A stretch of 45,798 nt of DNA from Megasphaera sp. (GTDB lineage: Bacteria > Bacillota > Negativicutes > Veillonellales > Megasphaeraceae). Position numbers and translations under genes: made by a program. Shown here one piece after another: positions 1-12,667 of the stretch (the first letter of the stretch is position 1; the number at the start of each line of letters is the position of its first letter). Under the pieces are notes generated by a model. It was not told the origin of the DNA and did no database searches. It saw nothing but the letters and a program-made list of their open reading frames with translations. The stretch spans positions 1 to 45,798 of the forward strand of contig JALCDF010000007.1 in the NCBI GenBank assembly GCA_022641375.1, in the 5' to 3' direction.

Positions 1-146
1 ATCAGGTCATATGGCTCTGATAGGGCTTTTTCCAGTCCTGTGACGCCGTCGGCAGCGGCATCGACGGTAAAGTCGCTGGCTTCGAGGTAGTCCCGTTCCA
101 GTTCTGTGATATCGGTGTTATCTTCAATGATAAGGATTTTTTTCAT
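1..146 (-). CDS. Response regulator receiver domain, partial (C-terminal part outside window)
   Basis: The first 48 residues of a response regulator are visible, beginning MKKILIIEDNTDITELERDY. The start ATG is at 146-144 and the reading frame runs off the left edge. The IIEDN segment carries the acidic Mg-binding pair of the receiver fold; the phosphoacceptor Asp and the output domain are not in the window. It lies 39 bp downstream of the histidine kinase on the same strand, so the two are almost certainly a cognate pair. An OmpR/PhoB-type output domain is my inference from the kinase architecture and from the 11-bp-spaced direct repeats in the divergent promoter at 1792-1818. Confidence 0.9.
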   Translation of the reverse strand, partial: MKKILIIEDNTDITELERDYLEASDFTVDAAADGVTGLEKALSEPYDL

Positions 147-185
147 GATGAGTTCTTCCTCTCCGAACTATCGCCGGGGCCATAG

Positions 186-1715
186 TCAGTTGTTCTGTGA
201 TGTATCCGAATCTTTTGTATTTTTCGTATCCGGGGGATTTGTTTCGGCCAGCGGCAGGGTCATGCGGATCGTCAGGCCGCCACCGGGGGTTTCCAGGGCC
301 AGGATGGTGCCGCCCATGCCGGTCAGGATTTGTCTGGCGATGGCCAGTCCCAGGCCGTTGCCTTTGATATCCGAGCGGGCGGCATCGGTGCGGTAGAAGC
401 TGTCGAATAGTTTCGACAGGCTTTCCGGCGGGGCGCCCATGCCGTGGTCGATGCAGTCGATGCGGACCTGCCTGCCGGCCGGGGTGACGGTGAATTCGAC
501 GCGGCCCGTATCGCCTTGCTTATATTTCAGGCTGTTGCTGATGAGGTTTTCCAGGACGCGGCGGAACTGGAGGCTGTCGATGGCGACGATGGCCGGCGTA
601 TCCGGTCCCGTGAGGGTGACATCCAGTCCCTGTTCATGGAGGGCCGGCTGGATTTCCTGTACGACGTCGTAAATATACCGGTAAATCGGCAGCGGCTTCA
701 GGGAAAAGGTCATGCGGCCCAGGTCCAGTTTGGAGAACAGGAACAGTTTGTCGACCAGTTGTTCCATGGCGCAGGCTGTCGTATAGATGCAGTCCACATA
801 GTGGCGCTGTTTTTCCGGCGTGCTGGCGATGCCGTCGCGGATGCCGCTGGCATAGCCTTTGAGCAGGGTCAGCGGGGTGGACAGGTCGTGGGAGATGCCG
901 GCAATCAGTTCTTTGCGGTTCTGTTCGTATTTTTCCTGTTTTTCCCGGGATGATTTCAATTCGCGGCGCATGGTGTCAAAATCATGGCAGGTCTTGCCCA
1001 GTTCATCGTGACTGGATACGTCGAGCGTGTATTCGAGATTGCCCTTCTTGATTTCCGCCGAGGCTTTTTGCAAGGCCGTCAGGGGTTCCAGCACGTGGCG
1101 CGACAGGAGGCGGGACAGATAGATGCCCAGCCAGATGATGAGGAGGATGGCCAGGACGAGAATGGAGATGGCCAGGAATTCCAGGAAGGATTTCAGATTA
1201 TCGCCGGCGTCGTCATCATGATGGCCGATGAACGCGACGGAGCCGGCCGCATAGAGGGTGAGGTCGCGATGGCGGGACTGATTGACGAAATAGAAGTCGG
1301 GGCCTTCCCACAGGACAGCCGATGGCTGGGGGCCGACTTTTCTCCGGACGATATCCCGTATATGGGCGGCGTCACTGCCCGGTGTAGCATATAGGACACC
1401 GTCGTTTTGGACCATGACGGTGCGGATGCCCTGCCGTTCCAGCAGGTGGCATTCTTTTTCCAGTTTTTTCATATCCAGCGGATGTGGCGTATCCATCTTG
1501 TCCCGCAGGGCGCTGACCGAATAGGAAACGGACATGGAAGCGCCCCGTTCCGGCCAGAGGAGAGCCAGCTCGCTCTGCCGTACCGTGTCGGTAAAGCGGA
1601 GGCCGGCGAAGATAGCCGTGCCGAGGAGGGTCAATAAGATGACGGGAATGCATACCATCAGGAAATTGGTACAGAGTATGCGTGTCCGCAAGGAAATATT
1701 TCGCAGGTGCAGCAA
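186..1715 (-). CDS. Membrane sensor histidine kinase (HAMP-HisKA-HATPase)
   Basis: This 509-residue sensor kinase would autophosphorylate on His and pass phosphate to the regulator encoded just downstream. A first membrane segment spans about residues 17-40, an extracytoplasmic sensor region 41-175, a second membrane segment about 178-200, then HAMP. The HisKA box reads ELIAGISHDLSTPL, with the phosphoacceptor His in SHDLSTP. The ATPase domain shows NLISNSLKY (N box) and GNGLGLAIARQI (G2 box). The start is a TTG at 1715-1713: it is preceded by AAAGGGGG at a good distance, and no ATG fits as well. The C-terminal tail is Asp/Asn/Thr rich. The kinase precedes the regulator in the operon. The sensed signal cannot be read from the sequence; the divergent PepSY membrane protein is a likely target or accessory factor. 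Confidence 0.95.
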   Translation of the reverse strand: MLHLRNISLRTRILCTNFLMVCIPVILLTLLGTAIFAGLRFTDTVRQSELALLWPERGASMSVSYSVSALRDKMDTPHPLDMKKLEKECHLLERQGIRTVMVQNDGVLYATPGSDAAHIRDIVRRKVGPQPSAVLWEGPDFYFVNQSRHRDLTLYAAGSVAFIGHHDDDAGDNLKSFLEFLAISILVLAILLIIWLGIYLSRLLSRHVLEPLTALQKASAEIKKGNLEYTLDVSSHDELGKTCHDFDTMRRELKSSREKQEKYEQNRKELIAGISHDLSTPLTLLKGYASGIRDGIASTPEKQRHYVDCIYTTACAMEQLVDKLFLFSKLDLGRMTFSLKPLPIYRYIYDVVQEIQPALHEQGLDVTLTGPDTPAIVAIDSLQFRRVLENLISNSLKYKQGDTGRVEFTVTPAGRQVRIDCIDHGMGAPPESLSKLFDSFYRTDAARSDIKGNGLGLAIARQILTGMGGTILALETPGGGLTIRMTLPLAETNPPDTKNTKDSDTSQNN

Positions 1716-1791
1716 TCGATTACCCCCTTTATAGTATTACTTTATATAGTATACCAAATAATCAGCGGCGGCATATCCATTTTTTTTAAAA

Positions 1792-1834
1792 TTTAGTTGT
1801 CGTTTAGCTGGAATTTAGATATTCCCCGTATACT
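1792..1834 (+). promoter_or_regulatory. Promoter of the PepSY gene with three 11-bp-spaced TTTAG boxes
   Basis: TTTAG occurs at 1792, 1803 and 1814, exactly 11 bp apart, which puts the boxes on one face of the helix. A -10 hexamer TATACT follows at 1829-1834. The position for -35 (1806-1811, TAGCTG) is poor and lies inside the boxes. Direct repeats at 11-bp steps in place of a -35 are the usual arrangement for OmpR/PhoB-type activators. I infer that the adjacent response regulator binds here; the spacing is seen, the binding is not. Confidence 0.6.
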
Positions 1835-1895
1835 GACAGTGTACTACAAAAAAAGAAACGACTACAGATCATGAATGGACGGGGAGGTCTTGAAT

Positions 1896-2588
1896 ATGAA
1901 AAATCAATGGACAGAACAGGTAAAGGAAAACGTAAAATCCGTATGTACGGCAAAGAGGATGAAAGCGGCGGTCGCCGTCCTGGTCATCTGTGCCATAGCG
2001 GGAGCCGGCGGCAGTTATTATTTCCATCAGCAGCGGGTGGCGCAGCGTATGGAAGAACGGCAGGCGCAGTCGAAAGTCGTAGCCTATGAAGCATCGCGGA
2101 ACCATGTCAACCTGTTATCGGAAGAACAGGTCCGGGCAGCTGTAGCGCAGGCTGTCGGCCAGGATGAATCGTCTATCCAGTTCAAGGAAATCGCCTTGGA
2201 AAATAAAGACGGCCATGACCGTGACGGCCATGATAAAGATAAGAAAGATAAAGATAAGCACCAAAACGGGGACCGCAAAGATAAAAAGGATAAACAAGAT
2301 AAACAAGGCCAGCAGCCGGCCGGCAATCCGCCGCAGCAGGGCCAGCCCGGTCCCACCATGCAACAGGTGATGCCGCCTGCCGATGGAGCCGGCCCGGACG
2401 GGGCAGCAGCACCGGACGCAGCGGCCGGTGCGACGACAGCCGCCAAACCGGACAAGGCGATGATGTCCTTCCATCCTTCGTATGAAGTAGAATGTACGGT
2501 AGGCAACATCAAATATGAATTCAATGTCGATGCCGTATCCGGCGATATCTTGAGAAATAAAGTCAAAAGTGAACATTCGCTGTTTTAA
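1896..2588 (+). CDS. Membrane-anchored PepSY-domain protein with a charged low-complexity insert
   Basis: This 230-residue protein has a short cytoplasmic N-terminus, one membrane segment (about residues 23-42) and an extracytoplasmic region. Residues 73-104 (LLSEEQVRAAVAQAVG...FKEIALENKDG) look like the first half of a PepSY domain. Residues 193-222 (HPSYEVECTVGNIKYEFNVDAVSGDILRNK) look like the second half. Between them lie about 88 residues of low complexity: first Lys/Asp/His rich (105-137), then Gln/Pro/Ala rich. PepSY domains are known as peptidase-inhibitor or sensor-accessory modules. The start at 1896 was chosen because GGGGAGG sits 9 bp before it; an ATG at 1875 has no ribosome binding site. 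It is divergent from the two-component genes, which suggests control by them. The function is not known. Confidence 0.8.
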   Translation: MKNQWTEQVKENVKSVCTAKRMKAAVAVLVICAIAGAGGSYYFHQQRVAQRMEERQAQSKVVAYEASRNHVNLLSEEQVRAAVAQAVGQDESSIQFKEIALENKDGHDRDGHDKDKKDKDKHQNGDRKDKKDKQDKQGQQPAGNPPQQGQPGPTMQQVMPPADGAGPDGAAAPDAAAGATTAAKPDKAMMSFHPSYEVECTVGNIKYEFNVDAVSGDILRNKVKSEHSLF

Positions 2589-2608
2589 CCGGTTTACCGG
2601 GATGTGAG

Positions 2609-2647
2609 AAAAAACCTCTTCAGGAAGGTGTCTGAAGAGGTTTTTTG
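2609..2647. terminator. Bidirectional intrinsic terminator
   Basis: The arms AAAACCTCTTCAG and CTGAAGAGGTTTT enclose a short loop and are followed by T runs on both strands. The hairpin lies between the convergent PepSY gene and TetR gene and can serve both. Confidence 0.9.
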
Positions 2648-2653
2648 CTGTCG

Positions 2654-3316
2654 TTAGCGTTTCTTGTCGGGATTGCGCAGGGTACCCAGGATGGCCAGGG
2701 TATTCTTTTTCAACAATTCCAGGAATTCGTCCTGCGGGAACCGGACCGGCAGATATTGACGGATGGGATTGTCCTGCGTGATGAAAATCAGGGAAAAGGG
2801 GGCGATAAGGGTGATGAGGCAGCTGTACAGGCGGGGATCCGTCGTGTCGTATCCCAGATAATCGCTGAGGATCTGTGTGAGGATGCGGAATTTCGGCAGG
2901 GCCTTGCTGGAAATGACCTGGCCGATACAGGGGGACGGATCGAGGATTTCCCGGATCCAGGCCCGCACATGCCAGTCATCCCGCCGGCACGTGTCTTCCC
3001 AAAAGAAGGCCAGGAGCCGTTCTACTTTCTGCCGCGGCGAAGCGTCGCTGTGATAGAGCCGGGTCATGATGTCGATGTTGACGAGGTAAATCTGGACTTC
3101 TTCCAGGACGGCGATATGCAGGCCGTTCAGCCCGCCGAAATGATAGTTGACAGCGGATTGGTTGACATGGGCCAGCTGACAGATTTCCTTGCTCGTCGTG
3201 TTGGCGTAGCCGTTCTGGGCGAACAGCCGGCCGGCACATTCGATGATGCGGGCCCGCGTTTCCCTGCCGTCTTCACGGCCGGAAACGGGTGACGTTTTTT
3301 TGATGGTGGTATGCAT
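2654..3316 (-). CDS. TetR/AcrR-family repressor of the CecR type
   Basis: This 220-residue regulator has an N-terminal TetR helix-turn-helix at about residues 22-70 (RIIECAGRLFAQNGYANTTSKEICQLAHVNQSAVNYHF) and a larger helical ligand-binding domain. It is the last gene of the efflux operon and starts 17 bp after the ybhR-like gene, with AAGAGG before the ATG. In E. coli the TetR-family protein CecR (YbiH) stands next to ybhG-ybhFSR, and the same association here supports a CecR-like role. The 18-bp palindrome in the operon promoter (8462-8479) is its likely binding site. Because the repressor gene is the last gene of the operon it controls, the circuit would be self-limiting. The ligand is unknown. 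Confidence 0.85.
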   Translation of the reverse strand: MHTTIKKTSPVSGREDGRETRARIIECAGRLFAQNGYANTTSKEICQLAHVNQSAVNYHFGGLNGLHIAVLEEVQIYLVNIDIMTRLYHSDASPRQKVERLLAFFWEDTCRRDDWHVRAWIREILDPSPCIGQVISSKALPKFRILTQILSDYLGYDTTDPRLYSCLITLIAPFSLIFITQDNPIRQYLPVRFPQDEFLELLKKNTLAILGTLRNPDKKR

Positions 3317-3333
3317 GATGAAGCGCCTCTTTC

Positions 3334-4452
3334 TTAGGATAATTTATGACGGAACAGCCATGATGCCAGGGGCAGCGTGATGGATGCGACGACGAGCATG
3401 GGAATGTAATTATATGCAATCAGGGCGAGGCCGGCCCCTTCCAGATAGATGCGCCGGATGGCTTCGATGGTAAAGCGCATGGGGTTGATATAGGTGACAT
3501 ACTGCAATACGTCGGGCATGTTGTGTATTGGCGTGGCCAGTCCGGACAACAGGATCATGGGCAGCATGAAGACGAAGCAGTAGACCATGACCTGTTGCAT
3601 GTTTTTGGCAACGGCGGAGATGGACAGGCCGATGCCGACACAGCTGATCAGGAAGATGAGAATCGTCAGGTACAGCGTCAGCAGGGAGCCGACGAGATGG
3701 ATGCCGAACCAGAAGGTGATGAGGCAGAGCATCAGGGTAGCCTGCAGCAGGCCGATGACGATGGGCGGTACGGCCTTGCCGATGAGGATTTCACGGGGCC
3801 GCAGCGGCGTGACCAGCAACTGGTCGAAGATGCCCTGTTCCCGTTCGCGGGCGACGGACAGTCCGGCCAGCATCAGGACCTGAGTCAGGGCTAATACGGG
3901 CAGCAGGGACGGCAGAAACATCCAGCGGGTGATCAAATTGGGATTGTAGCGGGCAATCGTCTGGATATGGATCAGCTGCCGTCCCTGATGGAGCTGATTG
4001 ATATTATAGGAGGAAACGATGGCACTGACATAGCTGGAAGCGATGCCGGACGTCATGGGATTCTTGCCATCGGTAATCACCTGTATCGGTGCCGTCTCGC
4101 CGGCCGTCAATTGATTGGCGAAGCGCGGCTGGATCTGGATGACCAGCATGGCATCGCCGGAATCGATGGCTTCGGAAATCGAGTCGGCATTGGCCAGGGT
4201 GCGGACGCGCTGGAAGATGCCGCTGCCGTCCAGGCGGGCCAGCAGTTCGTCGGAATATTTGCTGTGGCTCTGATCGAGGACTGCATAGGGGACGCTATCG
4301 AGATTATACGTAGCCGTATATCCGAACAGGAGGCCCTGGATCAGGACCGGGAAAATCAGGATGGCCCGGCTTTTGGGATCCTTGACGGTAGCCAGGAATT
4401 CCTTGCGGATGATACATATGATTTTGTATAGGAAGGCATGTAAGGTATCCAT
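3334..4452 (-). CDS. ybhR: ABC-2 type efflux permease, YbhR-like
   Basis: This 372-residue integral membrane protein has one N-terminal membrane segment (about residues 27-48), a large extracytoplasmic loop to about residue 170, and five or six membrane segments in the C-terminal half. The conserved cytoplasmic stretch SVAREREQGIFDQLLVTPLRPREILIGKAVP is the ABC2-membrane family hallmark. Its ATG shares one base with the stop codon of the preceding permease (TAATG), so the two are translationally coupled. It is expected to pair with the 4452-5579 permease and the double ATPase to form an exporter. The name rests on gene order and family; substrate specificity is not readable. Confidence 0.88.
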   Translation of the reverse strand: MDTLHAFLYKIICIIRKEFLATVKDPKSRAILIFPVLIQGLLFGYTATYNLDSVPYAVLDQSHSKYSDELLARLDGSGIFQRVRTLANADSISEAIDSGDAMLVIQIQPRFANQLTAGETAPIQVITDGKNPMTSGIASSYVSAIVSSYNINQLHQGRQLIHIQTIARYNPNLITRWMFLPSLLPVLALTQVLMLAGLSVAREREQGIFDQLLVTPLRPREILIGKAVPPIVIGLLQATLMLCLITFWFGIHLVGSLLTLYLTILIFLISCVGIGLSISAVAKNMQQVMVYCFVFMLPMILLSGLATPIHNMPDVLQYVTYINPMRFTIEAIRRIYLEGAGLALIAYNYIPMLVVASITLPLASWLFRHKLS

Positions 4453-5579
4453 TATTCCAGCTTCTTTCGGGTCACTTTCAGGGACAGCAGGATGAACAGC
4501 AGGGCGTAGGCGGCCAGAATCAGGCAGTTCTTGCCGATGAGGGTCCAGTTGTTACCGGCCAGGAACAGGGATTTCAGCAATTCCATATAATAGGTGGCCG
4601 GCAGGATATGGCCGACAGCACTGATGGCGACGGGGACGCTGCGCAGGTCGAACATGAAGCCGCTGAGCATGATCGTAGGCAGCATGCTGACGACAAGGGA
4701 CAGCTGGCAGGCCAGGAACTGATTCTTGACGACAGAGGAAATAGTCAGCCCAATACCGAGGGCGACCAGTACGTATTCCATGGAGGACAGGATGATGATG
4801 AACAGGGAGCCGTGGATGGGGACATCGTACAAGTAGCGGGCGGACAGCATGCAGAGGGTGAATCCCAGCATGGCGATGGAAAAGTACGGAATCATTTTGG
4901 CCAGGAGGATTTCCAATGGTTTGACCGGCGTGATGAACAGTGATTCCAGGGTGCCCCGTTCCCATTCGCGGGCCATGACCAGGGCGGTCAGGAAGACGCC
5001 GACAAGGGTCATGACGATGACAATCAGGCCGGGGATGAACAGCCACGTACTGGTATTGGCGTCGTTGAACCATTGGCGGTTCACGATGGAGACGGAGCCA
5101 AGGGACGCGGACGTCGTCGTGACGTAGTCTTTTTGATGCGCAGCCTGCCAGCTGTTCAGGCCGCTTTCGACATAGACCGCCGTCGTGCGGGCGGTTGCGG
5201 CATCGACGCCGTAAGAGATGATTTGCAGGCTGCCGTTTTGCTGCCGCAGACGGGATGTAAAATCAGGTGGTACACATAAGATAATATCGGCCTGGCGATA
5301 ATCCATCAGGTTTTCGGCCTCGGCCATAGAAGTTACGTACCGAGGCGAAAAATAGTCGGAACCTTGCAGGAAACCGAGCATATCCCGGACGGTCGGGGAG
5401 GAGTCCTCCATGACGACGGCGACGGGGACCTTTTTGATGTCAAAGGACATGGCCGAGCCGATGAGCAGGATCATCATCATAGGGATGACGATGCCGATGA
5501 GCAGGCTGCTCGGATCGCGCAGCATCTGACACCATTCTTTATGGATGAGTGCACGGAGACGGCGCAGGAAATCAGTCAT
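4452..5579 (-). CDS. ybhS: ABC-2 type efflux permease, YbhS-like
   Basis: This 375-residue permease is built like its partner: one N-terminal membrane segment (about 27-47), an extracytoplasmic domain of about 130 residues, then a block of membrane helices. The amphipathic motif ALVMAREWERGTLESLFITPVKPLEILLAKMIPYF marks the ABC2-membrane family. It overlaps the upstream ATPase gene by four bases (ATGA) and the downstream permease by one, so the three are tightly coupled. The two permeases probably form a heterodimer, as in E. coli YbhSR. Confidence 0.88.
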   Translation of the reverse strand: MTDFLRRLRALIHKEWCQMLRDPSSLLIGIVIPMMMILLIGSAMSFDIKKVPVAVVMEDSSPTVRDMLGFLQGSDYFSPRYVTSMAEAENLMDYRQADIILCVPPDFTSRLRQQNGSLQIISYGVDAATARTTAVYVESGLNSWQAAHQKDYVTTTSASLGSVSIVNRQWFNDANTSTWLFIPGLIVIVMTLVGVFLTALVMAREWERGTLESLFITPVKPLEILLAKMIPYFSIAMLGFTLCMLSARYLYDVPIHGSLFIIILSSMEYVLVALGIGLTISSVVKNQFLACQLSLVVSMLPTIMLSGFMFDLRSVPVAISAVGHILPATYYMELLKSLFLAGNNWTLIGKNCLILAAYALLFILLSLKVTRKKLE

Positions 5580-7336
5580 GATGCATTCGCCTCCTTGTCG
5601 GCCCGGGCCTGTTCGACGATGGCGATGAAGGCCTCATTCATGGTCCGGCTGCTGCCGCTGCGGCGGATTTCCGCCGGTGTGCCGATGGCCAGCATCCGTC
5701 CCTGATCCTGGATCATGATGCGGTCGCAATATTCGGCTTCTTCCATGAAATGGGTCGTAATGATGATGGTCGTGCCGGTGGCGGCCAGGGCGGTAATCTG
5801 CCGCCAGAAGGTACGGCGGGCCAGCGGGTCGATGCCGCTCGTCGGTTCGTCCAAAAATAAGATGCGCGGCCGGTGCATGAGGGCGGCGGCCATGGAAAGA
5901 CGCTGTTTGTAACCGCCCGGCAGGGTGCCGGCCGGCTGCAGTACCTGATCGGTCAGGCCGAACTGTTGCAGCAGCTCGGCCATGCGGGTACGGATTTGCT
6001 GCCGCGTCAGGCCGTAGGCACCGCCGAAGAATTCCAGGTTCTCTTTGACGGACAGCGTGCCGTAGAGAGAAAATTTTTGTGCGACGTAGCCGACGTTGGC
6101 CCGGGCCTGAGCCCTGGCCGTACGCAGATTGACGCCGGCTACGGACAGGAAGCCGCTCGTAGCGGGGAGCAAACCGCAGAGCATGCGGAATGTCGTGGAT
6201 TTACCGGCACCGTTCGGTCCCAGCAGGCCGAATATTTCACCGCGGCGGACTTGGAAAGACGTATTGTCCACGGCTGTGAAATTGCCGAATTTGCGGACCA
6301 GATCCCTGACTTCGATTTCAATCTTGTCGGAAATGGCCGTGCCGGCTCCATAGTCCAGTTCAAAACCATGGGTATCCCGCGGTTCATGGCTGACGGCCCG
6401 GAGAAGTTTCATGAAACTATCTTCCAGTACTGCTGGTATGGGACGGGGGTGCAGGGTATCGAAATAACGGTACGCGTTCAACCCGCTTAAAACGGTTGGT
6501 GAAGTCACACTGAAGCGTACTTCGCCGCTTGCCGGTACGGCATCGACGACGTGTTCCGCATCATCCAGCAGTGCTGCCTGCAGGATGCGGGCCGGTACGC
6601 CTGCCGGCGGCCGGAGCATGAACGTACAGCCATCCGAGGCGTGCAGCAGTTCTGCCGGAGAGCCCTTGTCTAACAGGTGACCCTGATGGAGGATGTAGAC
6701 CTGCTGGCAAAGGGCGGCTTCATCCATATATGCGGTGCTGACAAAGACGGAGATGTGTTCTTCCGCTGTCAGTTCCTGCAGGATGGCCCATAATTCGCGG
6801 CGCGAGAGAGGGTCGACGCCGACGGTCGGTTCATCCAGCAGCAGTAATTTCGGTGAGCGGACGAGGGTGCAGGCCAACCCCAGTTTCTGTTTCATGCCGC
6901 CGGACAGTTTGCCGGCCGGGCGGTTGGTGAAGGAGGACAGGCCCGTGATGCGGAGCAGCCGGTCGAAGCGGGCCTGCCGCATAGCGGCGGGGACACCGTG
7001 CAGATCCGCATAGAGGCGCAGGTTTTCCTGGACGCTCAGGTCTTCGTAGAGGCCGAATTTCTGCGGCATGTAGCTGAGCTGATCCTGGATGGCCTGGGGA
7101 TGGCGGGTGACATCCATGCCGAGGACGGACAGCGTACCCGCCGTCGGCGACATAAGGCCGCAGAGGAGACGCAGGAACGTCGTCTTGCCGGCGCCGTCCG
7201 GCCCAATCAGGGCGGTCAGTTGTCCCGGTTCGATTTCCATATTGATTTGGTGTAATGCCTCGACGGGACTCCCTGTGACGACATCGTGGAATGTCTTGCA
7301 GAGGTTGACGGCCCGGATGATTTTCTGTTCGGTCAT
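5576..7336 (-). CDS. ybhF: Double-domain ABC transporter ATPase, YbhF-like
   Basis: This 586-residue protein contains two complete ABC ATPase domains. Domain 1 (about residues 8-235) has Walker A GPDGAGKTT, signature LSGGMKQKLG and Walker B LLLLDEPTVGVDP. Domain 2 (about 335-575) has GPNGAGKST, a signature reading LPGGYKQRLS with Pro in place of the usual Ser, and ILFLDEPTSGIDP. The changed second signature suggests the two ATP sites are not equivalent; this is an inference. It energises the two permeases encoded immediately downstream, with which it overlaps by four bases. E. coli YbhF has the same tandem architecture. Confidence 0.92.
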   Translation of the reverse strand: MTEQKIIRAVNLCKTFHDVVTGSPVEALHQINMEIEPGQLTALIGPDGAGKTTFLRLLCGLMSPTAGTLSVLGMDVTRHPQAIQDQLSYMPQKFGLYEDLSVQENLRLYADLHGVPAAMRQARFDRLLRITGLSSFTNRPAGKLSGGMKQKLGLACTLVRSPKLLLLDEPTVGVDPLSRRELWAILQELTAEEHISVFVSTAYMDEAALCQQVYILHQGHLLDKGSPAELLHASDGCTFMLRPPAGVPARILQAALLDDAEHVVDAVPASGEVRFSVTSPTVLSGLNAYRYFDTLHPRPIPAVLEDSFMKLLRAVSHEPRDTHGFELDYGAGTAISDKIEIEVRDLVRKFGNFTAVDNTSFQVRRGEIFGLLGPNGAGKSTTFRMLCGLLPATSGFLSVAGVNLRTARAQARANVGYVAQKFSLYGTLSVKENLEFFGGAYGLTRQQIRTRMAELLQQFGLTDQVLQPAGTLPGGYKQRLSMAAALMHRPRILFLDEPTSGIDPLARRTFWRQITALAATGTTIIITTHFMEEAEYCDRIMIQDQGRMLAIGTPAEIRRSGSSRTMNEAFIAIVEQARADKEANAS

Positions 7337-7387
7337 GATGCATTCGCCCTTTCGTAACTAACCGTACGGTTGCCAGTGTCGCTTCTG

Positions 7388-8380
7388 TTAGAAACGAATC
7401 GTTGCCGGCATGCCCATGCGCAGTACGTTCTGTTCGTCCGTGACGTAGATGCGTACTTCATATACCAGGGAGCTGCGCAGTTCTTCGGTCTGGACTGTCT
7501 TCGGCGTGAATTCGGCGGTATCGGAGATATAGCCGACCTGTCCTGTCAGCGGCGTATCGGGCTGGCTGTCGATGTATACTTGTGCGGCCAGGCCTTCGTA
7601 GATGCGGCTCAGTTTGTCTTCCGGGATATAGGCGCGCACCCATTTGACGTTGTCGAGGCCCAGCAGGAAGACCGGTTTTTGCGAAGAGGCCATATCCCCC
7701 GGTTCCAGCAGGCGGGAGCGGATGACGCCGTCCTGCGGGGCAATCAGTGTCGCCTGGCTCAGGTTGTATTCCTGGGTGCGCAGGTTTTCCTGCAGTTGCT
7801 GCAGCTGTGCATCGGCTGCGTCGATATCTTCCTGACGATAGCCGATTTGAGCCATCTGATGGGCGGCTGTGTTGTTCTGCAAGGTCGCGGCGGTCATCTT
7901 GAAGGAGGCTTCGGCGTTGTCCAGCTCCTGGCGGCTGATGGCACCTTGTGCGTACAGCTGCTGCATGCGCTGGTAGGTCAGCTGATTGTTTTCATAATTA
8001 GCGGCAGCGGAATGGACGGACGCTTCGGCTTCGGTGATTTCTTCCGGTCGGGAGCCATTGTGCATCTTGGCCGTGACGGCACGCTGCTGGGCAATCTGCG
8101 CGTTGGTGGCGGCAATGGCAAGTTCCAGCGGTTCCGTGTTCAGCGTAGCCAGCACATCCCCTTTGTTGACGTGGTCTCCTTCTTCGACGTTCACGGTCTG
8201 GATGCGTTCATTGGCATTGAAGGCCAGCGAGACCTGCCGGATATCGACGTTGCCGTACAGGGTCAGGGCTGTCTCCCGCGGACGGGTATACTGATAGGCG
8301 GCAATGCCGGCGGCCAGCAGGAGAATCAGGAATAAAAGGAGTTGTTTTTTGTGAGCTTGCAGGAATTGTTTCATGTGCAT
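7388..8380 (-). CDS. ybhG: HlyD-family periplasmic adaptor, YbhG-like
   Basis: This membrane-fusion protein of about 330 residues connects the inner-membrane exporter to the outer envelope. It has an N-terminal membrane anchor (QLLLFLILLLAAGIAAYQY). A split biotinyl-lipoyl-like domain follows (LYGNVDIRQVSLAFNANERIQTVNVEEGDHVNKGDVLATL, completed near IAPQDGVIRSRLLEPGD). Between the halves lies a long coiled-coil hairpin rich in Ala, Gln and Glu. The open frame extends to 8455, but that codon lies inside the promoter -10 element, so translation must begin later. ATG at 8380 has a GAGAGAG purine run five bases upstream; ATG at 8374 is the alternative. It is the first gene of the exporter operon. 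Confidence 0.88.
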   Translation of the reverse strand: MHMKQFLQAHKKQLLLFLILLLAAGIAAYQYTRPRETALTLYGNVDIRQVSLAFNANERIQTVNVEEGDHVNKGDVLATLNTEPLELAIAATNAQIAQQRAVTAKMHNGSRPEEITEAEASVHSAAANYENNQLTYQRMQQLYAQGAISRQELDNAEASFKMTAATLQNNTAAHQMAQIGYRQEDIDAADAQLQQLQENLRTQEYNLSQATLIAPQDGVIRSRLLEPGDMASSQKPVFLLGLDNVKWVRAYIPEDKLSRIYEGLAAQVYIDSQPDTPLTGQVGYISDTAEFTPKTVQTEELRSSLVYEVRIYVTDEQNVLRMGMPATIRF

Positions 8381-9601: not shown

Positions 9602-10010
9602 AGGGGGGGCGCTGCCTATCCTTCTGTCCGTTCAGATGGCCCCATCCTATTGTTGCCGCTTTTATCCTCAAAGAAAAGGCGCCCATATCCGTTAGGATAA
9701 GGGCGTGGGTTCGCATCACATGCAAGAATGGGTTTTCTTTTCGGATTCAGCTGGCAACAGTACGGATGGTTCCAAATTCACGGACCGAAGAACAGGCAGC
9801 TTGGGGATGTCAGGTATCTTCGTTCTGCGAAGATAGAGGTGGGCATCATCCTTATTTTGTCCACTCAATGGCTGTAGACAAAGCAGTATTGCGAAGCAAT
9901 ACATGCGTTGTCCGCCAAATGGATGGACAAAACAAAGACGCTGTCCACCAGTAGCAATTGCGGAGGAGAAAGTCAGTTCTTAGTTGTTGGAAGTGAGGTT
10001 CTTGGTTCTT
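9600..10010. repeat. Large structured direct repeat, copy 1
   Basis: About 411 bp recur at 10635-11052 in the same orientation with only about a dozen differences, apart from a 7-bp insertion near the end of copy 2. The unit is rich in stems. An 11-bp stem at 9680-9705 (one mismatch) would act as a terminator on the minus strand, with TTTTCTTT following. TATCTTCG/CGAAGATA lies at 9815-9835. GTATTGC-GAA-GCAATAC lies at 9886-9902, enclosed by TTTTGTCCA (9855-9863) and TGGACAAAA (9924-9932). The open frames in it show no ribosome binding site or family resemblance. Copy 1 lies directly downstream of the minus-strand toxin gene. No transposase gene or terminal target duplication is visible. Confidence 0.9.
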
Positions 10011-10025
10011 GAAAACCTGGAATCG

Positions 10026-10286
10026 TTAATCATGATAATGTTCTTTACACTGGATGATTTCCAGACGGTTTCCGTTAATCCGATACACCAAACGGTCTTT
10101 TTGATTGATGCGTTTACTATGCCAGTCGCCATCCATATAGCGCAGCGGTTCATCTTTGCCTAATCCATCATACCCATTGCGTTGGATGTCTTTTACCAGT
10201 TTGTTTATTTTAGTCAAAGTTTTTTTGTCGTTGCTCTGATACCTGATGTAGTCCTGCCATGCTTCTTCATCCCAACAAATAATCAT
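10026..10286 (-). CDS. yoeB: YoeB/Txe-family toxin (ribosome-dependent mRNA endonuclease)
   Basis: This 86-residue toxin aligns without gaps at the known active-site positions of E. coli YoeB: Glu46 (KDEPLRY), Arg65 (QKDRLVY) and His83 (CKEHYHD). Toxins of this family bind the ribosomal A site and cleave mRNA. The gene overlaps the upstream antitoxin by four bases (ATGA), the usual arrangement. The whole pair is bracketed by the two ~410-bp direct repeats. All catalytic residues are intact, so the toxin is probably active. Confidence 0.93.
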   Translation of the reverse strand: MIICWDEEAWQDYIRYQSNDKKTLTKINKLVKDIQRNGYDGLGKDEPLRYMDGDWHSKRINQKDRLVYRINGNRLEIIQCKEHYHD

Positions 10287-10549
10287 TTGTCTTCCTCAAT
10301 CAGGGAATGTGTAATATAGTTTCCGGAATCCATACGTTTTGCTGCCGCTTTTAAATGGTGCATGTTTTCATCGCTGTAGAAATGATCTCCTGCAGTTACA
10401 CGGAATGGGATAGCCCGATCTGCTACCAGACGTTTTGTAAAAATCGTAATGGCAGCTGACATCGTCAGTCCCATGTCGTTACATATTTCTTCAGCTTGTC
10501 GTTTCAGGTCAGCATCTATACGGATTGTCATCGTTGTATTTGTTGCCAT
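10283..10549 (-). CDS. RelB/DinJ-family antitoxin
   Basis: This 88-residue antitoxin has a ribbon-helix-helix DNA-binding N-terminus (TMTIRIDADLKRQAEEICNDMGLTMSAAITIFTKRLV) and a C-terminal part that should wrap the toxin. The ATG at 10549 was chosen because AAAGGACG lies upstream; the frame could also open at 10567. A TATAAT element lies about 15-20 bp upstream on the minus strand, in a region the antitoxin may also bind. DinJ-type antitoxins are best known with YafQ-like toxins and YoeB with YefM, so the pair is a mixed combination, though such mixes occur in Firmicutes. Confidence 0.9.
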   Translation of the reverse strand: MATNTTMTIRIDADLKRQAEEICNDMGLTMSAAITIFTKRLVADRAIPFRVTAGDHFYSDENMHHLKAAAKRMDSGNYITHSLIEEDK

Positions 10550-10634: not shown

Positions 10635-11052
10635 TAAGGGGGGCGCTGCCTATCCTTCTGTCCGTTCAGATGGCCCCATCCTATTGTTGCCGCTTTCGTC
10701 CTCAAAGAAAAGACGCCCATATCCGTTAGGATAAGGGCGTGGGTTCGCATCACATGGCAAGAATGGGTTTTCTTTTCGGATTCAGCTGGCAACAGGACGG
10801 ATGGTTCCAAATTCACGGACCGAAGAACAGGCCGCTTGGGGATGTCAGGTATCTTCGTTCTGCGAAGATAGAGGTGGGCATCATCCTTATTTTGTCCACT
10901 CAATGGCTGTAGACAAAGCAGTATTGCGATGCAATACATGCGTTGTCCGCCAAATGGATGGACAAAACAAGGACGCTGTCCACCAGTAGCAATTGCGGAG
11001 GAGAAAGTCAGTTCTTAGTTGTTAGTTGTTGGAAGTGCGGTTCTTGGTTCTT
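10635..11052. repeat. Large structured direct repeat, copy 2
   Basis: This second copy of the 9600-10010 unit has the same orientation and starts 1035 bp after the first. It keeps every stem seen in copy 1; in the GTATTGC/GCAATAC hairpin only the three-base loop differs (GAT instead of GAA). It ends in the same TTCTTAGTTGTT...GTTCTTGGTTCTT tail, with one extra AGTTGTT repeat. It lies downstream of the minus-strand abi gene and upstream of the antitoxin promoter. Confidence 0.9.
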
Positions 11053-11068
11053 AAAAGAAGAAACTAAT

Positions 11069-11155
11069 TTTTTAAGAACCGCGCCTATAAGAACCAACAA
11101 CGAATATTTTTTAACAACCGCCTTTCAAAGAACCAATAATCAACAACGGATTTTA
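11069..11155. repeat. Degenerate ~40-45-bp repeat units, left array (2 units)
   Basis: Two adjacent units each begin with a T run, then AA[CG]AACCGC, a variable core and CAACAACG. The first starts near 11071 and the second near 11107. Related units occur at 12455-12565 on the other side of the abi gene in the same orientation. The upstream GTTCTTGG... tail is roughly complementary to the AAGAACC/AACAACC motifs, so a hairpin between them is possible. Units are too degenerate and too few for a CRISPR array. Confidence 0.7.
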
Positions 11156-11235
11156 TTACATTACATGAGAATACCTGTATGGGGAAGCGACATGTAGGAA
11201 ATGATAATTTTAAATGCTGCCATCAATTTTATGTA

Positions 11236-11267
11236 TAAAAAAAGAACCCGACGCATCAGGTTCTTTT
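11236..11267 (-). terminator. Intrinsic terminator downstream of the abi gene
   Basis: Read on the minus strand, AAAGAACC and GGTTCTTT form a stem around a ten-base loop and are followed by seven T residues. It lies about 85 bp past the abi stop codon. Confidence 0.85.
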
Positions 11268-11350
11268 AGAGCTTGGTCCGAAGACGGCAGCTACTTTCTT
11301 CAATCTCATTATAACAAATGGGATGTAATATAGCAATAGTCAAATATCGA

Positions 11351-12322
11351 TTAGGAATTAGTGAGAAAGGTTCTGAGTGTATTCATATTATTTAGTGTTC
11401 CGGAGCCAAGTATTTGATTCCATACTGGGGAAGGAATCTGAGTTCTTAATATGTCTTTACTAGTATTGTAACTTGTGAGCAGTTGTTTGCATTCTGTTTT
11501 TGTTACTTGCATTTTTCGTAAGACATACGCAATTAAAATAATGTAGGCATCAATGTATTGAAAATCAATATTTTTTACAGAGGTTTCGTTTTGTAAAAGG
11601 CGAATCAGTCGTGAGCTGATTTTATTTGAACGGAAACGAGCATCAAAAATAACATTATTATGGGCGATTGCATTGCGAAGGTCTTTTATCGTAAAGATGA
11701 TATCTTTAGTTAGTTCTCCATCTGAATCCCAATTAGAAGGGAGATGCAACAATTTAGATGTATATAATTTCACATCCTGATTACAGCACCAGAAGAATGT
11801 ACCAAAATCGCCTAATGTCATAGATTCAAAAATAGCCCAGATGGGGACTTCCCGGTCATTGTTAAAAAAGTGGTTTACAATTTGATTATGCTGTCCGTAA
11901 TCACGTTTGAGCGTGTTGTTAATGGATCCCCTCAGAGTCATGCGTTTGGTAAAAAAACGTTTATAAGCATCGCTGCCGGGAGTAAATGTTTTATAATATG
12001 TAAGTGAATGATTGAAAATCGTGTTGAGATTTTCCGAATGACTATTAGCCAGGACTGCTTCAATCACGTAACTTTTTAATGCCGTTTCAATGAACATTAC
12101 CCGGGAATACAGTAATGCTTTTAACTGCATGTCAAAATTATTGATTGCCAGCAATTCATCAAAAGTCGTAAATGGAATTTTTCGTTTCGGGGAGCGGATA
12201 AAGCGATATCCCTTATAACCGTGATAGTATCCCATATTTCTTAGGGCATGAGCCTGCGTGCTTTTAATTGATATGTGATGTTTTTTGCGTAGATAAAGCA
12301 TCATTTGTCTGATAGTAAGCAT
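11351..12322 (-). CDS. Abi_2 / AbiD-AbiF family abortive-infection protein with HEPN motif
   Basis: This 323-residue protein shows the Abi_2 family landmarks. The N-terminal region reads ALRNMGYYHGYKGYRF. The middle motif VPIWAIFESMTLGDFGTFF is at about residues 159-177. The segment DLRNAIAHNNVIFDAR contains Arg216-Asn-Ala-Ile-Ala-His221, the Rx4H motif of HEPN RNases. Family members stop phage infection, presumably by cutting RNA in the infected cell. AAGGAG lies nine bases before the ATG and a TATAAT element is at 12355-12350. The gene is clearly more AT rich than the housekeeping genes around it and is flanked by degenerate repeats on both sides, so horizontal acquisition is likely. Confidence 0.85.
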   Translation of the reverse strand: MLTIRQMMLYLRKKHHISIKSTQAHALRNMGYYHGYKGYRFIRSPKRKIPFTTFDELLAINNFDMQLKALLYSRVMFIETALKSYVIEAVLANSHSENLNTIFNHSLTYYKTFTPGSDAYKRFFTKRMTLRGSINNTLKRDYGQHNQIVNHFFNNDREVPIWAIFESMTLGDFGTFFWCCNQDVKLYTSKLLHLPSNWDSDGELTKDIIFTIKDLRNAIAHNNVIFDARFRSNKISSRLIRLLQNETSVKNIDFQYIDAYIILIAYVLRKMQVTKTECKQLLTSYNTSKDILRTQIPSPVWNQILGSGTLNNMNTLRTFLTNS

Positions 12323-12401
12323 TTGATCCGACTCCTTTTGTTTTTGTTTATTATAGCATTCATATAATTTCTTGGATAGGTGAGAGGGGGAGAAGCTGTG
12401 A

Positions 12402-12570
12402 GCAGTTGTTAGTTGTTGAGAAGTGCGGTTCTTGGTTGTTAGAAAAGCGAAACAATTTTTTTAACAACCGCCTTTTCAAGAACTAACAACCAACAACGAA
12501 TATTTTTTAACAACCGCTCCTATAAGAACGAACAACCAACAACGAACGCTTTTTTTAACAACGAACAACC
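12402..12570. repeat. Degenerate ~40-48-bp repeat units, right array, with copy of the large repeat's tail
   Basis: The stretch opens with AGTTGTTAGTTGTTG..AAGTGCGGTTCTTGG, matching the last ~45 bp of both large repeats. It continues with units beginning near 12455 and 12502 and a short third near 12550. Each unit starts with T6-7, AACAACCGC and ends in CCAACAACGAA. Unit content parallels the array at 11069-11155, so the abi gene sits between two same-orientation arrays. It lies upstream of the abi promoter and of the ars operon promoter. Confidence 0.75.
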
Positions 12571-12601
12571 CAATTCCCGGTCAGCCATATAAAACAATAC
12601 A

Positions 12602-12644
12602 TTGACAATTATCTATATGATAATGTATACTATGTCATATAGAT
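12602..12644 (+). promoter_or_regulatory. Promoter and ArsR-type operator of the arsR-permease-thioredoxin operon
   Basis: TTGACA (12602-12607) and TATACT (12626-12631) are 18 bp apart. The perfect ten-base inverted arms ATCTATATGA (12611-12620) and TCATATAGAT (12635-12644) flank the -10 element. An inverted repeat of this shape over the core promoter is the standard operator for ArsR/SmtB repressors, one of which is the first gene downstream. Confidence 0.88.
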
Positions 12645-12667
12645 GACTATCAATGGGAGATGATGAT

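Follow-up and report, generated by a model that had tools for sequence, protein, structure and literature searches.

The abi locus of this Megasphaera sp. genome is likely to be a compact defence unit in which an AbiD toxin is paired with an RNA antitoxin, accompanied by independent copies of a dispersed repeat. The window, the whole 45,798-nucleotide stretch of contig JALCDF010000007.1 that was analysed, carries the toxin gene on its minus strand:

11351–12322, minus strand: abi gene, predicted AbiD-type Abi_2 HEPN ribonuclease of 323 aa, assigned from PF07751, the PADLOC type AbiD and superposition on 8VZ6
11660–11677, minus strand: codons of the HEPN motif RNAIAH (R216 to H221), invariant in the aligned homologues

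The 323-aa protein belongs to the Abi_2 family by its match to PF07751 (E=8e-29; 101.6 bits, with a curated cut-off of 25.6), and PADLOC labels it AbiD (E=9e-23). A preliminary description had placed an AbiF-type HEPN gene between two repeat arrays; the gene is indeed Abi_2 with a HEPN motif, the PADLOC type being AbiD. The HEPN catalytic motif R-phi-xxx-H is present as RNAIAH, and R216, N217 and H221 are unchanged across 19 aligned homologues. When a profile built from 16 Abi homologues was compared with the PDB, the sole match was 8VZ6, the RNA-bound PbAbiF (E=1e-8). The AlphaFold2 model of the protein (pLDDT 86.5, pTM 0.85) has the AbiF fold, superposing on 8VZ6 with a Z of 19.4 and an rmsd of 3.3 over 269 residues; the next structural match, Cas13d, has a Z of 8.8, a value that is middling for helical proteins. 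The protein thus resembles that of the PbAbiF-AbiFr system (8VZ6, PMC12737573) in fold, sequence profile and HEPN motif, whereas identity in the structural alignment is only 15%. The best reading of sequence and model is an AbiD-type Abi_2 toxin, a putative RNase with an intact HEPN motif.

Directly 3′ of abi and on the same strand lies a predicted small RNA gene with its own promoter and two hairpins:

11237–11301, minus strand: predicted AbiD-linked RNA, about 65 nt long, its 5′ end placed by the promoter position and its 3′ end by the T-run
11308–11336, minus strand: predicted RNA promoter matching the consensus, with TTGCTA (11331–11336), a 17-nt spacer and TATAAT (11308–11313)
11270–11292, minus strand: RNA hairpin 1, with UUCG loop and covarying helices 1 and 2
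11240–11267, minus strand: RNA hairpin 2, the terminator hairpin, with covarying helix 3 (an inverted repeat) and a loop, AUGCGU, that is conserved; a T-run comes next

Read along the minus strand, the order is TTGCTA, 17 nucleotides, TATAAT and then GAAGAAAGUAGCUGCCGUCUUCGGACCAAGCUCUAAAAGAACCUGAUGCGUCGGGUUCUUUUUUU. The two hairpins are predicted from an alignment of 23 copies of the RNA (A3), in which 15 of the 19 pairs show at least one compensatory double change. Standard pairs fill 97.2% of the cells in this alignment as against 80.5% after shuffling, and changes on both sides of a pair occupy 87 cells as against 29; neither value was reached in any of 500 shuffles, a control that by itself does not amount to a probability, the RNA sequences being related. 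Sliding the structure along the alignment preserves that relatedness and agrees with the shuffles, the paired cells falling to 35–56%, a comparison in which the consensus-derived structure is favoured. Across the copies, hairpin 1 keeps a UUCG-type loop with an invariant CGG, and the loop of the terminator hairpin is mostly AUGCGU. Since a plain terminator does not need a conserved loop, the conservation of hairpin 2 exceeds what its terminator role would ask. A promoter-like −10 box precedes most copies at one offset, with a −35 spacing of mostly 16–17 nt. The summed promoter score of the copies (9.1) is only modestly higher than that of shuffled sequences (8.2, sd 0.8), and the constant position of the boxes is therefore the stronger argument.

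The RNA travels with the gene. The closest Abi homologue, 82% identical and encoded in another genome of the genus (G008), sits in a different neighbourhood without repeats. Nucleotide homology between the two loci covers exactly 11236–12360, that is, the gene and the RNA, and stops at 11236, just beyond the T-run of the RNA terminator. The comparison of flanks with the closest homologue that had been proposed in the preliminary description therefore divides: the RNA is conserved and the repeat arrays are absent. About 30 AbiD-type Abi_2 loci of Bacillota, plasmids and prophages have the RNA beside the gene. It lies 3′ of AbiD-type genes whose proteins are 28–82% identical to the window Abi, in genomes of the same class and phylum, on Streptococcus and Enterococcus plasmids and on prophage or satellite-phage contigs; in one locus (L040) it lies upstream of the Abi gene instead. 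As in type III toxin-antitoxin (TA) systems, a structured RNA gene is conserved beside a putative toxin gene.

A covariance model of the AbiD-linked RNA (R1), whose training set includes the window copy, scores 69.4 bits at 11238–11309 in the window, and 68.5 and 71.9 bits on two loci outside the training set (L053 and L069). Searched over 380 genomes of the class, R1 gave 13 matches above 45 bits, nine of which adjoin Abi_2 genes that were found independently by protein search. The remaining four are orphans in one genus, without Abi_2 in their 3-kb loci, and belong to genomes that have the RNA and lack the gene (G354, G356, G357 and G358). They share one locus between ORFs that by eye are transporter-like and acetyltransferase-like, and they match the abi-linked copy of G355 over 123–190 nt at 87–93%. 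Orphan copies are seen in L096, L097, L100 and L101 (about 1501–1570) and also in L102, four of them at one syntenic spot. R1 found no match in two AbiD-like loci that do have flanking sequence (L070 and L080), in five loci cut off at or near the gene end (L058, L068, L071, L079 and L081), in the weak relative L083, or in the distant AbiF-like L050, L051 and phiC2. From alignment and covariation, this is a well-supported, conserved, AbiD-linked structured RNA, and it is matched by no Rfam 15 model.

The repeats on either side of the unit have a different distribution. Five features are distinguished in this part of the window:

9604–10014: first copy of a larger, roughly 415-bp repeat, ending in a GTT arm, 96% identical to 10638–11056
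9974–10014: half copy of the heptad repeat, GTT arm only
10638–11056: second copy of the larger repeat, with the GTT arm of copy A at its end
11008–11155: copy A of the dispersed, palindromic heptad repeat, made up of a GTT arm, a loop and AAC arms
12403–12570: copy B of the dispersed, palindromic heptad repeat, made up of a GTT arm, a loop and AAC arms that recur with period 46

A YoeB/RelB-type toxin-antitoxin pair (10026–10549, minus strand) lies between the two copies of the larger repeat, further copies of which occur on at least six contigs. At 12600–12655, directly upstream of an ArsR-type regulator gene, a 28-nt ungapped inverted repeat is probably its operator.

The preliminary description had reported degenerate repeat units of one orientation on both sides of the gene, with tails able to pair with them, and both observations hold. 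A 38-nt unit is found in four copies, at 11067, 11106, 12456 and 12502, with 76–89% identity to the reference copy, and Tandem Repeats Finder reports 12457–12562 (period 46, 2.3 copies, score 145). The GTTCTTGG tails are complementary to the units (11040–11053 with 11088–11101, and 12428–12442 with 12483–12497), and the hairpins fold far beyond dinucleotide shuffles (z of −5.0 and −6.8 as RNA, −4.3 and −5.7 as DNA). The family is built of GTTNTTN arms followed by NAANAAC arms. Successive GTTNTT words stand 7 nt (74 times) or 15 nt (22 times) apart, and successive AANAAC words 7 nt (75 times) or 15 nt (30 times), so that the repeat is built on a heptad, and its 22-nt composite form contains a GAAGTGCG-like insert.

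In 446 kb of the genome, made up of 20 stretches and the window, GTTNTTNGTTNTT or its complement occurs 33 times, as against 0–2 times in Markov sequences. When 11000–11160 was compared by BLAST with its own genome assembly (1.69 Mb, 73 contigs, 79% complete), it yielded 64 matching pieces; the 32 with E≤1e-4 lie on 17 contigs. Of eight repeat clusters in the 446-kb sample, six are intergenic, some just past a stop codon. The heptad repeat is short, palindromic and present in many intergenic copies, traits that it shares with REP elements of the kind moved by a RAYT transposase. It was absent by BLAST from all 14 other genomes of the genus, so that, of the 15 genomes searched, only those of one species carry it. 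From this distribution, the repeats are a species-specific family dispersed genome-wide and unconnected to abi; flanking the unit on both sides, they may nonetheless have a role in its movement. They resemble the TAACTGA repeats of Beggiatoaceae (PMC4679880) in their 7-bp period and their intergenic position at many sites, and differ in unit and in layout, the degenerate heptads here being arranged as a palindrome whose GTT and AAC arms enclose an AT-rich loop.

How the family arose can be read in two ways. One is that a transposase spread it as a non-autonomous mobile element of a MITE- or REP-like kind, to which we give slightly less than an even chance, and the other is that the heptad arrays grew by slippage. 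Mobility is favoured by the palindromic order (23 of 33 clusters run from a GTT arm into an AAC arm, and none simply the other way round), by the membership of some copies in the larger repeat and by an insertion relative to congeners. This insertion is an intergenic heptad repeat on contig C2 (6740–6880 of L143), where three congeners have an empty orthologous gap, the same gene pair being adjacent without the element in G012, G002 and G010. Against mobility, this assembly, 79% complete, contains no match to the Y1_Tnp transposase family (PF01797), the one empty site examined shows no evident target-site duplication, and the variable number of heptads suggests slippage. Two further candidates were set aside. 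The repeats might have bordered an array of gene cassettes, with YoeB/RelB, Abi and ars genes between copies; other copies lie mostly amid ordinary-looking chromosomal genes. Integron attC sites were dropped on arm order, which in attC is the reverse of the GTT-then-AAC order of the repeat.

We next consider what the conserved element beside abi does. It could act merely in cis, as a 3′ terminator or stability hairpin of the abi mRNA with no separate action on the protein. It lies immediately past the 3′ end of abi in the same orientation and ends in a terminator hairpin, both of which would fit such a role. We regard this as unlikely, for a plain terminator needs neither the conserved, covarying hairpin 1 nor a conserved terminator loop, a promoter-like sequence stands at the same offset before most copies, the RNA of L040 lies upstream of its gene, and orphan copies exist where the gene is missing. 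That the partner RNA is made from the repeat arrays, as type III antitoxins are from their tandem repeats, is very improbable despite their stable hairpins on both sides of the gene, given that copies sit at many unrelated sites, that none of the 14 congeners has them (including the genome with the 82%-identical Abi), that one copy is an insertion relative to congeners and that a different RNA is conserved with the gene. The preliminary description had suggested the arrays as a place where such an RNA could be encoded, and this view of them as source or marker of a partner is not supported, given their occurrence at dozens of unrelated sites, their absence from 14 congeners and the inserted copy. 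Its expectation of a partner RNA adjoining abi was sound, the RNA being conserved and covarying, and was mistaken about the place: the RNA runs from 11301 to 11237, not in the arrays and just outside both stretches that had been suggested for small-RNA sequencing.

The reading that we prefer is that the AbiD-linked RNA is probably an antitoxin that holds a toxic protein off. In C. difficile, RCd22 neutralises the toxic AbiF through direct RNA-protein binding (PMC12373285), which also bears out the earlier statement that some Abi_2/AbiF proteins are inhibited by a small structured RNA, and PbAbiF has been described as an RNA-bound dimer (PMC12737573). By these two precedents, the RNA would most likely bind the AbiD HEPN dimer and keep the RNase inactive. 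Short and transcribed from a predicted promoter of its own, it could stay in excess over the protein. Were it lost, or were something altered when a phage infects, the RNase would be released and growth would halt. The case for inhibition is one of analogy, since neither the sequence nor the position of the RNA is that of the characterised abiF RNAs. It may also have another role, as the RNA occurs in four genomes that lack the gene.

A comparison with known systems delineates the likeness. As in AbiF-RCd22 (PMC12373285), an Abi_2 HEPN protein adjoins a small structured non-coding RNA that has a predicted promoter and terminator of its own and a short hairpin with an interrupted stem. In contrast to that system, where the RNA lies in the 5′ leader and has two abiF motifs, the RNA here is 3′ of the gene and combines a single hairpin of the interrupted-stem kind with a terminator hairpin whose loop is conserved; the C. 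difficile AbiF and the Abi protein here are about 19% identical. The likeness to type III TA systems (ToxIN and relatives) is one of proposed logic only, a protein toxin that would be neutralised directly by an RNA. The toxin here is a HEPN protein, and instead of a tandem-repeat RNA upstream of the gene followed by a terminator, a single unit that is no tandem-repeat array is found 3′ of the gene.

At the abi locus, nothing in Rfam 15 comes near a gathering score, and the abiF RNA model (RF03085, gathering score 37 bits), the only Rfam 15 family matched beside any Abi_2 gene examined, has no match beside abi or its AbiD relatives. RF03085 does detect the leader of C. difficile phiC2, which R1 does not match. 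A second Abi_2 gene is present in the same genome, on contig C45 (positions 5156–6071 of L141, which spans 1–8000 of the contig; minus strand), encoding 285 aa with a PF07751 match at E=1e-56. In its leader is an RF03085-like hairpin that scores 26.6 bits, below the gathering score, with an identical loop CUCUCAACGAUG and then a T-run. The two Abi proteins of this genome are 22% identical over 175 residues. Because the C45 leader is RF03085-like and no such RNA is found at the window abi, one genome appears, from sequence, to contain two pairs of Abi_2 gene and RNA that differ in the RNA and in where it lies.

A wider proposal, which we consider doubtful, is that the AbiD-linked RNA forms a separate class of antitoxin without recognisable similarity to abiF RNA, serving its own branch of Abi_2; that the orphan copies (G354, G356, G357 and G358) would give immunity in trans against incoming AbiD elements; and that two pairs that do not cross-react could share a genome, perhaps as here.

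The RNA-guided Cas13 nucleases have been proposed to descend from Abi_2 proteins, and guide RNAs are presumed to have begun as the partner RNAs of such proteins (PMC12373285, PMC12737573). This locus also illustrates that repeats on either side of a defence gene may be misleading. If the AbiD-linked RNA is indeed an antitoxin, its specificity would be testable inside one genome that carries both RNA types, and a second RNA without recognisable similarity to abiF RNA, in the AbiD branch, on the other side of the gene and recognisable by a covariance model, would widen the pairing of HEPN RNases with RNA.
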